64,000 bases of DNA. It comes from Volutella citrinella (Eukaryota > Ascomycota > Sordariomycetes > Hypocreales > Nectriaceae). Positions 11,263 through 16,324 of this stretch are shown here, in pieces. The stretch covers positions 4,650,001 through 4,714,000 of the forward strand of contig JAWZSP010000004.1 of assembly GCA_034401135.1 (NCBI GenBank). The letters run 5' to 3'. Position numbers and translations under genes: made by a program. How positions within the stretch are numbered: position 1 is the first letter of the stretch; each line of letters opens with the position of its first letter. Under the pieces are notes generated by a model. It searched no databases and was not told where the DNA came from. It was given only the letters and a program-made list of their open reading frames with translations.

Positions 11263-11750
11263 GAGCTTGCGATGCTTGGCTACCTCACAGTGACTATAGA
11301 AGAAGGGTTTTGTAAACGAGATGCAGTTATTCGAATCACATGTGTATTTAAAGCACAGCATAATGGTAAATAGACATGGAAGGCAAATAGAATTGCACTT
11401 GATACAGCAGCGAATGTCACTGCCACCTTATTTTTGCATTGCACTCAATAGTAGAGCAATTGCAGTAACAGTTCAAGCTCCAGCTTCACCCATTCAATTC
11501 ACCAACCCAAATGCGCAGGTATCCAAGTGATCGTGGGGAGCATCGTGACGTCACGATCGCGCCACGTGTAGATCATTTCGCGTCTATGCGTGAATCTGTA
11601 CCTTAATTAGGGTGTGGATTGCCCAAAAGACAATGTTTCTTCTCACCTGTGAATTTCGAGTCTGTGATGCCTTTTTAACGTTCATGATTCCCGTCTCTAA
11701 AAACCAGTGGACCCTGCTTTCTACAACTCGACAACGCCTGACATGCCACC
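11263..11750. other. Intergenic promoter region of the NmrA-like gene
   Basis: No gene. It holds a 16-bp palindrome centred on a CRE site and a nearby CACGTG box, listed separately. Confidence 0.5.
11542..11568 (+). promoter_or_regulatory. CRE palindrome plus CACGTG box
   Basis: Bases 11542-11557 form a perfect 16-bp palindrome (ATCGTGACGTCACGAT) that contains TGACGTCA, the site bound by CREB/ATF-type bZIP factors such as fungal AtfA. A CACGTG box follows at 11563-11568. They lie 180-210 bp before the ATG of the NmrA-like gene, a normal place for upstream activating sites. This suggests stress-linked control; it is inference. Confidence 0.5.
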
Positions 11751-12709
11751 ATGCACATCGCCATCGCCCCAGCCAGCACCAAGACGGCCAGAGCAGTCAT
11801 CACATCATTGTTGTCTCAAGGCAGCCAGGATGTTAGGGTGACGGGCTTGTACCGAGATCTGGCCAAGGTCCCGGCCGAGTTTGCAGCCAACCGAAATTTC
11901 ACAGCGGTTCAGGCGGATGTCTCGGATGAAGCCTCTCTCGATTTCACAGGCATGGATGCCGTGCTGGCCATTACGCCGCCAGTCATGGATGGCCGCGATA
12001 TCGTAGCGCACGCGGAAAATGTGTCCAAAAACGTCAAGACGGCGGTTGAGAAGTCCAACAGTGTCACAAGACTGGTGTTGCTGAGCAGCAGTGGAGCGCA
12101 GTTTTCAGAGGGAGTGGTAGGCACTTCCCATATAGTCATGTTGGAAAGATCTATCCTGACACTCTATAGGGCGAAATAAAAACCAACCACGTCGCTGAAG
12201 AGGTCTTCTCTCTCACAGATGTACCAGAGATCATCTTCATCCGATGCGGCTATTTTATGGAGAATTGGACCATGTGTATGGACAGCCTCAAGGCGCCAGC
12301 GCCATTATTCTACTCGACAATCACTCCGCTCGACTGGAAGCTGCCCATGGTTGCGGTGCGTGACATTGGCTCTGCACTCGCCTCTGAGCTCCTCAGGACA
12401 GCCAGCCCGCCATCGAAGCCACACATCTTTGAGCTACACGGGCCGCGAGCGTACAGCCCGCTGGATGTGCAGGCTGCGTTCTCCCAGGCTCTTGGAAAAG
12501 AAGTAATTGCCAAGGCTGTCGAGAAAGATGATCTGGCCGCGTATTACGGGGCCATCTTCCCGCCCCAGGTTGTTGGCCATTGGGTTGAGATGGCGCAGAG
12601 TATCCTGCCCGGGGGCGTGATAGGGGAGGATCATGTCGAGGAGGGACGCATAATGCGAGGGTCGACGGATCTTTTCGAGGCTATTCAGAGGGAGGTTTCC
12701 GGTATTTAG
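11751..12709 (+). CDS. NmrA-like NAD(P)-binding Rossmann protein
   Basis: Two exons (11751-12116, 12170-12709) give 301 residues. The N-terminus MHIAIAPASTKTARAVITSLL takes the place of the Rossmann loop; the glycine motif is altered to A-P-A-S-T-K-T. It is followed by VTGLYRDLAKVP, FTAVQADVSD and MDAVLAITPP, the atypical SDR pattern of the NmrA/HSCARG group. Further on are RLVLLSSSGAQF and EIIFIRCGYFMENW. Members are redox-sensing regulators or small reductases, some acting in alkaloid pathways. The usual catalytic YxxxK is not evident. No signal peptide. The promoter carries a CRE palindrome. Confidence 0.82.
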
Positions 12710-13339: not shown

Positions 13340-14418
13340 ATGCGCATTCTTGCACTCAACATCCCAACCATGGCGGCAGTGAGGACAACAACAGCGTTGA
13401 GGCTGGGCCGGTCAACCCTCAGCCTCCAGTGTCGCAATGAGGCCTCTGTCGCGCCGCTGCATGCGTGTCGGAGAATGTACTCGACCGCGCCCGCTCCCGC
13501 TCCCGTCACCTCGAGGTGGCTTTCCGAGCTCAACAGCCGGCTCAAGAAGTGCTCTGAGCTCAACCTCGCACCGGAACAGACTAAAAAGGTAGCGGCATTG
13601 TCTGATTTCGTTGAAAAGAAATGGCTGGAGCTGCTCGCCGGCCGGGAGGGATTCCATACGGGCGACGAGTGGAGGGGGTTGAATCGCCACCAGGTTGTCT
13701 GGGGCGACATGGTAAGTGTTGCACTCCACTAAAGCGATGCATCTTTCGGTTACTAATGGGGCATGCGATAACAGGATAGCATGGTAAGTAAACATGATGA
13801 TGCAATGTGCCGCTGTGAGACGACATGCTCACTCGTTTAATAGGGTAAGCCCCAGACCCTTGGTTCTGATCACCGATTCTAACCATCCCAGGTCACGTCA
13901 ATAACGTCATGTACAACAAATATGCCGAGGCAGCCCGCGTCAATTGGGTGCGACGCTTCGCGGCAGCTGCGCCAGACGAGCACCGACGCGAGTGGTTGGA
14001 CCTCATGACGCCTCGAGCCATCGGCCTAATCCTCAGAAGCATCAAGACAGATTACAAATTTGTGTGTCTTGCTCATCTCGCAGCTGAAGAGGCAACCGGC
14101 TGACTGCTATAGCCAATGACGTATCCCGACCGCACGACGGTTATTCACAAATTGCTGGCCAAGCCCGAGTATGACTCGGATCACATTCTGCTCGAGGCCG
14201 TCATCATCTCGGAGCGCTACCAGAGGGTCGCGGCGAGGTGCTACGAGGACATTGTCGTATTTGACTACAAGAATGCGCAGAAGACGCCCCTGAAGCATTT
14301 CATGGTGGATGAGCTGCAGAAGGCGTTCAAGGAGCAGGAGCAGGGCAGGCTGGCGTGTGACGAGAAAATTGCCGAGCTTTTGTCTTCAGTGGAGGAGATT
14401 GAGAATTCTGCATTGTAG
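13340..14418 (+). CDS. Hotdog-fold (4HBT-like) thioesterase, mitochondrial type, with 9-nt and 1-nt exons
   Basis: Five exons: 13340-13711, 13775-13783 (9 nt), 13844 (1 nt), 13892-14061 and 14113-14418. They total 858 nt, 285 residues. The N-terminus is basic and Ser/Thr-rich without acidic residues, as expected for a mitochondrial presequence. The start could also be the ATG at 13370 (MAAVRTTTALRLG) or, less likely, 13214 or 13295. The core motif WGDMDSMGHVNNVMYNKY matches the conserved D-x-x-GH-x-N-N of acyl-CoA thioesterase-like hotdog proteins. It is assembled from four exons: GDM, then DSM from the 9-nt exon, then the first base of the Gly codon from a single-base exon, then the rest. 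Each of the three introns here has its own GT and AG, and without the single base the frame breaks at the motif. The substrate is unknown. Confidence 0.82.
13712..13891 (+). other. Three consecutive introns separated by a 9-nt and a 1-nt exon
   Basis: Introns are 13712-13774, 13784-13843 and 13845-13891 (63, 60 and 47 nt). Donors are GTAAGT, GTAAGT and GTAAGC; acceptors are ACAG, ATAG and CCAG. Branch-like sequences are TTACTAAT in the first and TTCTAAC in the third. The single base G at 13844 sits in TAG|G|GTAAGC. Removing 13784-13891 as one intron gives a frameshift and destroys GHVNN. Confidence 0.72.
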
Positions 14419-14620: not shown

Positions 14621-16324
14621 TCATAGCCGGTTTATGTAGCTCTTGAAGCGGTAAAACACGACGCCGATAACCCAGATGCCAATCAGGACCAAAGTCTGAA
14701 TAGGTGCAAAAATAGATCCTCGAACAACGACGAAGCCGCTCACCAGTAAAAAGATGAATGGATTCAAAATGAACACCTTGTATGGTCGCTTCAAGTCTGG
14801 CTCGCGCCATCGCAGGATGACTGCCCCCAAGACGGTCAAAAAGAAGAATGTGTACTCGCCGAGGCCATTCAGCGTCAGCAAAGCGCGGAAGTCGCCCAAG
14901 AGGATATAGAGCGACCCGAGGATTGCAGACAGAATGATTGCGTTAATTGGTGCGTCGGACGAGGTTTCCCCTTGGGCAGGCTTCCTCCCGACGCGGCCGG
15001 TGATGTTGAACAGGGACGGGATCCAGTGGCGGTTCGCAGCTGCAACGGTCATGCGGCTGGCGACGAATGAATTGCCCAGCAGAGACCCAATGACGACCAG
15101 GCACACCAAGATGGCTGAAACAGCCCCAAGGGCCTGGCCCAAGAGTCGGGTGATGGCGGTCTGAATTGTTAATTCGTTAATCACTAGCCCGAAAACGGGA
15201 GAGGGAATGAACGTACCACGGCGACACTGTCTGTCGTTGAAACAATCTTCCACGGGAGGAGGATGTAGTAGCCCGTGTTTGCCACCAAGAAACACAGAAT
15301 GGCTGTGGGAATGGACGTGTTGATGGCGAGTGGGAGCTGTTTCGCGGGCTTGGAGAGCTCAGACGAGACATAGATTGCCTGTGCCCGTTAGCCGGAGAAA
15401 TCCATCATATGTCCAGCAATCTTACCTTGTCCCAGCCAGAGTAGCCCCAGAGAGCGGCATAGAGGGCAGCCGAGTAGTGGCCCAGAACTTCCCATTGCGA
15501 CAGCTCGTCCCAGTCATTCTCGCTACCATCGGGGTTGTAGCTCTTTCGGTATGCGAACCAGTTCTTCCTGAACCAGTCCTGGCCGCCAATCTTCCTTTCC
15601 GGAGAGGAAAAGTGCAGCCCCACGACGCTGATTGCCGCGACTGCCAGCGCAAAGATGCTGAAGAACTTGAGGAACACGAAGACGCCGTTGAGACGGGTGC
15701 TCGCCTTTGTGCTGACGCAGTTGGCGACGCTCGTCAGCACAAGCACGAGAATGGCCAGCAGCTTGTGTTCGATCCTTGCGCCCTCTCCGACGACGCCGGC
15801 GGCAGAGAATGCGCTCTCGACGAAGACGATGCTGAGGATGGCGAGCGTCGCGGGCATGACGCCCACGATCCACGTCCAGCCGGCTAAGAAGCCGTAGACC
15901 TCGCCGTACACATGCTCCAGGTAGGGCTGGACGCCTCCTATTTTGCGGTCAGACTGACACGGTATCACGAACTTGGCAGGCCGGTTTGATGCGAACCTTG
16001 TCCAGGGATCGCCGTCCCCAGCTCTGCAAACGTGCTGGCTCCTGTCCATGCCAGAACACCACCAGCGAGCCATACGAGCAGTGCCGCGCCGGGGGAGGGC
16101 ACATTGGTGTCTATAGAACCCGGGGAGGTAAAGACGCCGCTTCCAATGACGATGCTGATGACGATACTAAAGGCCTCGAGGGTGCCGAGATTGCGTGTGA
16201 ATGTTCCGTGAGGGGCGCGGGCATCCTCGGCATTGGCATTGTGCGGCTCATCACGGACCACTCCGTTCCGAGTATCTTCATCGCGGTGCTCGCTGAGCAG
16301 CGGTCTCTGCTCGGAGTCAGCCAT
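14621..16324 (-). CDS. LAT-family amino-acid transporter (APC superfamily)
   Basis: Four exons on the minus strand (15997-16324, 15426-15937, 15217-15378, 14621-15160) give 513 residues. The first intron uses a GTTCGC donor; the others are standard. The first membrane segment has the LAT hallmark SIVIGSGVFTSPGSI, followed by GGVLAWTGASTFAELGTAIPG. About twelve membrane helices follow, with ALWGYSGWDKAIYVSSEL and NSFVASRMTVAAANRHWIP, both typical of fungal L-type and methionine-permease-like carriers. It should take up neutral amino acids at the plasma membrane. There is no signal peptide; the N-terminus is a hydrophilic cytosolic tail. Exact substrate unknown. Confidence 0.9.

Follow-up and report, generated by a model that had tools for sequence, protein, structure and literature searches.

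A single G at position 13844 of the window, a 64,000-nucleotide stretch of Volutella citrinella DNA from contig JAWZSP010000004.1 (assembly of 45.1 Mb in 26 contigs), is very probably a genuine single-nucleotide exon, spliced by sequential, intron-defined removal of its neighbouring introns and probably shared by at least the Hypocreales and Glomerellales. The base stands between two complete canonical introns (AATAG/G/GTAAGC), both with branch-point-like sites, and is the first base of the glycine codon in the GHVNN motif of a predicted thioesterase.

The thioesterase gene is cut by four GT-AG introns and its coding exons span 13370 (or 13340) to 14418 on the + strand. Exon 1 (13370..13711, with the start ATG at 13370 or 13340) ends in phase 0 with ...HQVVWGDM, and homologues have the same N-terminal half. 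It is followed by intron 1 (13712..13774, 63 nt, GTAAGT...CTAAT...AACAG), a 9-nt exon GATAGCATG encoding D-S-M (13775..13783, phase 0 at both ends), intron 2 (13784..13843, 60 nt, GTAAGT...CTCAC...AATAG), the single G (13844..13844) and intron 3 (13845..13891, 47 nt, GTAAGC...CTAAC...CCCAG). Exon 4 (13892..14061) starts in phase 1 as GT CAC GTC AAT AAC, thus opening GTCACG. Intron 4 (14062..14112, 51 nt, GTGTGT...CTGAC...TATAG), which separates DYKF from PMTY, then leads to exon 5 (14113..14418), running to the stop codon. These coordinates were read directly in the sequence and agree with the first-pass annotation, which had placed three successive short GT..AG introns around the 9-nt exon and the G at 13844. 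The branch-point-like sites of introns 1, 2 and 3 (CTAAT, CTCAC and CTAAC) lie 18, 12 and 9 nt from the intron end, the best match in intron 2 (CTCAC) being one base off CTRAY. Introns 1-3 are of ordinary length, as judged by a de novo intron scan of the window that gave 15 candidates of 47-87 nt (median 54), a small, pattern-biased set that covers about 45-92 nt only and is silent on longer introns. The coding sequence measures 858 nt from the ATG at 13340 and 828 nt from that at 13370, both multiples of three; with the latter start, the N-terminus is closer in length to that of the Ilyonectria orthologue P0001.

To enumerate the possible products of this region, introns no shorter than 35 nt with GT-AG or GC-AG ends within 13700-13900 were combined in every possible set, giving 1120 distinct products. 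WGDMDSMGHVNN was produced solely by the set that contains the 1-nt exon. Open products in frame with HVNNVMY numbered 62 of the 1120, for example WGDM-HG-HVNN via a 4-nt exon. The base at 13844 is therefore required for both the reading frame and the conserved protein, being the sole route to WGDMDSMGHVNN among the 1120, and the earlier claim that the 858-nt total and D-S-M-G-H-V-N-N depend on this G was borne out. Excising 13784-13891 as one 108-nt intron shifts the frame, as had been proposed, and gives DSMVTSITSC... and then a stop. Retention of any single intron also led to a stop each time: ...VSVALH and a stop for intron 1, ...CSLV and two stops for intron 2, and ...GKPQTLGSDHRF and a TAA stop for intron 3, the last as originally predicted. 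Skipping the 9-nt exon alone keeps the frame (WGDM-G-HVNN) and loses the second Asp, that of DSM, which we take to correspond to the catalytic Asp in 4-hydroxybenzoyl-CoA thioesterase. How often such an arrangement arises by chance was estimated by dinucleotide shuffling of the 108-nt interval (5000 rounds), with the GT/AG ends held and both sub-introns at least 45 nt long. In 2 of the 5000 shuffles (0.04%) there was a 1-nt exon together with YAG, GTRHG and, on either side, a branch-point-like site; when YAG/GT alone was required, the share was 2.4%.

The encoded protein matches 4HBT_2 (PF13279) over residues 119-248 with 83.4 bits (curated cut-off 25.5) and an E-value of 2.3e-23, so the first-pass assignment to the hotdog thioesterases stands; the gene product is a predicted member of the 4HBT_2 family, with thioesterase as its predicted activity. 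Its motif aligns gap-free to the solved bacterial thioesterases 5byu and 3qy3 (WGDMDALGHVNN and WGDMDSYGHVNN), with which it shares WGDMDxxGHVNN, and the three introns cut the coding sequence inside W-G-D-M-D-S-M-G-H-V-N-N. The enzyme may be mitochondrial, judging by eye from a presequence-like N-terminus. Among the best 120 of 217 matches, the closest proteins came from Ilyonectria (60%), Dactylonectria (62%) and Mariannaea (58%), genera that we take to be Nectriaceae. Two more PF13279 matches were found in the same genome (L003 and L004), with no WGDM/GHVNN motif on the one strand scanned. A genome search with the second paralogue type (P0088) found the window's gene alone, and no second copy of a thioesterase gene of its type was found in the genome. 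Two neighbouring loci were also noted in the window. Upstream, the overlapping ORFs at 11742-12176 and 12170-12706 (+ strand, together 11742-12706) may represent a single NAD(P)-binding gene that an intron or frameshift has split; PF13460 matched the first (4.5e-11) and no Pfam match was found for the second. Downstream, an amino-acid permease gene (14624-16166, - strand, PF13520 on two ORFs) is convergent with the thioesterase gene and has a likely 47-nt intron at 15379-15425.

To look for the same junction elsewhere, we collected 272 distinct homologues from three protein searches (the best 120 of 217, all 95, and the best 120 of 654 matches), the sequences being representatives of 90%-identity clusters whose annotation pipelines are not independent. 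Each homologue was classed by whether it matched a regular expression describing the intact motif, with the intron 4 position as the control junction, and clades were assigned from the printed names. Among the matches listed, the motif was intact in 18/116 Sordariomycetes, 44/84 Dothideomycetes, 12/12 Leotiomycetes, 12/13 Eurotiomycetes, 1/4 other named sources and 40/43 unnamed sources. The control junction, among the same matches, was intact in 102/116, 76/84, 11/12, 12/13, 4/4 and 41/43, by a strict pattern that misses some proteins outside Sordariomycetes that are intact by eye save one letter (P0171, P0172, P0174, P0244, P0185 and the Leotiomycete P0094). A laxer pattern raised the Sordariomycete control to 104/116, but also passed P0054 and P0062 (DYKFCLL). 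Annotated Sordariomycete proteins without the intact motif thus amount to 98 of the 116 among the matches listed, and since the control is intact in 102, annotation fails more often at the junction that holds the 1-nt exon than at intron 4. Of the Sordariomycete proteins with landmarks on both sides (88 among the matches listed), 14 have an intact motif and 81 an intact control. Some broken models also have no WGD (10/98 in Sordariomycetes, several of them short, and 11/40 in Dothideomycetes, among the matches listed) and therefore say little about this junction. The clean models, among them the 12 from Leotiomycetes and Trichoderma P0028, P0030 and P0032, may owe their state either to the loss of introns or to good annotation; introns have perhaps been lost in some of the clean Sordariomycete, Dothideomycete and Leotiomycete proteins.

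The way in which the gene models break lends indirect support to the use and conservation of the 1-nt exon, as read from these predicted proteins. D-x-M was followed by V in 16 models among the matches listed (15 Sordariomycete, 1 Dothideomycete), as though the GTN donor that directly follows ATG had been ignored and the first bases of intron 2 kept. A further 13 models among the matches listed (8 Sordariomycete, 5 Dothideomycete) read D-x-M-G-x, where x is K, M, N or T in 12 and L in P0238; in P0135 and P0136, G-N alone is visible ahead of the next exon. The DSM-G-K/M/N/T reading is the predicted outcome of G followed by GTAAG, GTATG, GTAAY or GTACN, with the intron 2 acceptor used and the start of intron 3 read through. 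Both counts cover Sordariomycetes and Dothideomycetes only. Both kinds of break occurred within one Fusarium group (P0124, P0125 and P0128 versus P0132, P0135 and P0136), presumably the fujikuroi/oxysporum group, and within one Colletotrichum group (P0062 versus P0022, P0054 and P0056), which we take to be gloeosporioides. As a phase-0 intron alone predicts the first kind and a phase-1 intron alone the second, their joint occurrence points to two introns with a G between them. There are also signs that Hypocreales and Glomerellales share the exon, perhaps along with Dothideomycetes, and that it occurs in both types of paralogue.

Other models broke in different ways at the same place. Exon 4 is skipped and DSM joined to exon 5 in P0083 (Cylindrodendrum) and in P0160, P0161 and P0163 (Fusarium). 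ATG is joined to GTCAC, with a compensating shift upstream (letters read by eye), in P0005 (Stylonectria), P0089 (Alternaria), P0126 and P0129 (Fusarium) and P0190 (Dendryphion). Several models depart from this simple scheme. Where G-GTNNN would be expected, the Fusarium graminearum model P0121 has RQYGEVCI. DSM-G-L, which does not correspond to a consensus donor, appears in the Hortaea model P0238 and the Fusarium duplospermum model P0170; the latter, which has lost the motif start, was left out of the 13. Four Aureobasidium models and P0221 (together P0212, P0221, P0224, P0225 and P0228) end in TSHVNN or TNSHVNN (the latter in P0225, for example), possibly through an acceptor one base downstream (AG/TCAC), a one-base shift of the same intron. 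The lichen-fungus models P0242, P0267 and P0271 are likewise broken and do not fit well either. P0149 (Aspergillus bombycis), 54% identical to the Fusarium flagelliforme homologue and left out of the counts, reads DSMGTSHVNN, possibly by read-through of a G + GTAC donor, and lies beyond the two main classes. Among the homologues, we also observed that P0253 and P0259 (Exophiala xenobiotica, 468 aa) combine short-chain dehydrogenase domains with a thioesterase domain, being either real fusions or merged neighbours, and that P0069 (Diplodia corticola), a member of the family, is recorded as a 'rho guanine nucleotide exchange factor' and is apparently misnamed.

To compare these models with transcript-like sequences, six hand-picked lgn proteins were set against the remaining homologues. 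We infer that the lgn contigs are transcript assemblies because an ORF of 273-279 codons crosses the intron positions on a contig of 1.1-1.4 kb. The motif was intact in 6/6 of the lgn proteins chosen. P0058, whose longest contig has 1395 bases, shares 96% identity with P0059, a Verticillium longisporum model, and differs from it at the junction by a one-residue gap, reading DSMGHVNN versus DSMVGHVNN with its extra V. P0007 (1083 bases) is 87-93% identical to the Colletotrichum models P0008, P0009 and P0011, with all gaps at this junction, and reads WGDQDAMGHVNN. Both P0007 and P0058 read D-x-M-G-H-V-N-N.

In the mechanism we propose, three ordinary U2-type introns would leave the 9-nt exon DSM and a G that opens the glycine codon. 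Splice sites would pair across introns (intron definition), so no exon need be recognised; such pairing has been reported for Pezizomycotina (PMC5639578). Because the intron 2 acceptor and the intron 3 donor, one base apart, could hardly be occupied simultaneously, the introns would leave one after another. Removal of intron 2 first would rebuild the intron 3 donor as ATGG/GTAAGC, while removal of intron 3 first would turn the intron 2 acceptor into AATAG/GGTCACG, and either order would give the same mRNA. Stepwise splicing had at first been offered as an alternative to the 1-nt exon. The identical mRNA holds, but since the introns flanking a 1-nt or 9-nt exon could hardly be excised simultaneously, it appears to be the likely mechanism rather than a rival.

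A finer version of the same explanation, not exclusive of it, is recursive splicing in a fixed order, to which we give somewhat less than even weight: intron 2 would always leave first, the G would merely be the exonic -1 base of a regenerated intron 3 donor, and the mRNA would be the same. Once intron 2 has gone, that donor indeed reads GTAAGC with a G at -1; for Pezizomycotina stwintrons, excision in two steps by intron definition has been reported (PMC5639578), and for APC11, intron definition combined with recursive splicing has been suggested (PMC4674806). However, the opposite order also yields usable sites, and nothing here fixes the order. It is very unlikely that one 107-nt non-canonical intron (ATGG/TAAGT...CAG/GTCACG or ATG/GTAAGT...CCCA/GGTCACG) gives the same protein with no 1-nt exon. 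The mRNA letters would be identical, but TA-AG or GT-CA ends would be required despite internal canonical sites with branch-point-like signals of the kind met in two of the 5000 shuffles, and the DSM-G-K/M/N/T homologue models reveal a second GTA donor behind a G. We find it scarcely credible that two canonical introns (13712-13779 and 13784-13891) surround a 4-nt exon CATG to give WGDMHGHVNN. This product is in frame and annotators predicted the same for Fusarium P0126 and P0129, but it drops two motif residues including the second Asp, its spacing occurs in no homologue classed as clean (by definition of that class), and the transcript-like P0007 and P0058 read D-x-M-G-H-V-N-N. An assembly error or a decaying gene, with a base missing at an exon edge and a coincidental 1-nt exon, could account for the frame by one absent G, but models of many genera break at the same junction and the remaining ORF is open and conserved, making it hardly plausible.

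The reading we prefer remains a single-nucleotide exon spliced sequentially. How old it is can be said with less assurance: the chances are evenly balanced that the 1-nt and 9-nt exons are an ancient fixed feature, older than the split of Sordariomycetes and Dothideomycetes and than the Nectriaceae/Colletotrichum duplication, and that obligate splicing in three steps has kept them in place in many genera. An exon of a single base suggests that joining by fungal spliceosomes need not involve any recognition of the exon. If it is conserved as the homologue models suggest, the genetically tractable fungi Fusarium, Colletotrichum and Verticillium would offer a natural test system for splicing order at adjacent sites, and the exon would explain why public fungal proteins of this thioesterase family are repeatedly misannotated.

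Single-nucleotide exons are already documented. The first-pass annotation had called them extremely rare, and rare they are, but cases have been described, including one in Fusarium CYP621A (PMC12940212). Among the papers listed on single-nucleotide exons and stwintrons, no title or abstract opening names the thioesterase gene, and the word 'thioesterase' is absent from the available parts of the stwintron papers PMC9024468 and PMC5639578. According to the accessible text of PMC12940212, the CYP621A exon is a single G in an AG/G/GT context backed by SRA reads, within a 139-nt interval compared with a 56-nt median for single introns in F. graminearum, and its authors present it as the second example of a single-nucleotide exon and the first for a fungal gene. 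The two cases share a filamentous ascomycete host, a G in AG/G/GT, a glycine codon of a conserved motif and gene models that are wrong without the exon. They differ in gene and motif, in the position of the G (here the glycine codon's first base, there its central one), in the 9-nt exon directly upstream here and in the read support for CYP621A, whereas the thioesterase case is argued from sequence; its signs of conservation extend beyond Fusarium to other Hypocreales and Glomerellales, perhaps Dothideomycetes.

In plants, 1-nt microexons are described for APC11 and VPS55 (PMC4674806, PMC8831610), again in conserved genes, overlooked by annotation and long kept, from flowering plants to other land plants; unlike the thioesterase exon, these were established in plants by RT-PCR, RNA-seq and, for APC11, reporter constructs, as far as the accessible text of these reports describes. 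Guo and Liu took a similar one-at-a-time view for APC11 (PMC4674806), and adjacent microexons of 5 and 12 nt occur in a rice transcript (PMC8831610). The present gene does not have the structure of a stwintron ([D1,2] and related): both introns have complete GT and AG ends and one G remains between them. Stwintrons (PMC9024468, PMC5639578) resemble our case in having two introns of a fungal gene that need successive removal by intron definition, but as the available portions of these papers define them, one intron lies inside the other and interrupts one of its splice-site elements, leaving no exonic base. A single base also lies between the neighbouring introns rnl-576 and rnl-577 of strain WIN(M) 502 in the accessible part of an Ophiostomatales study (PMC12308204), likewise in a fungus, although those are mitochondrial group II introns and not spliceosomal. 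The microexon of Trichoderma virens Xlr2 (PMC11121469) is likewise from a filamentous Hypocreales fungus, but the accessible text describes its inclusion as regulated. The thioesterase exon is thus a probable further example beside APC11, VPS55 and CYP621A, and is unusual in its adjacent 9-nt exon, its site inside a catalytic motif, and its apparent age and sharing across orders.
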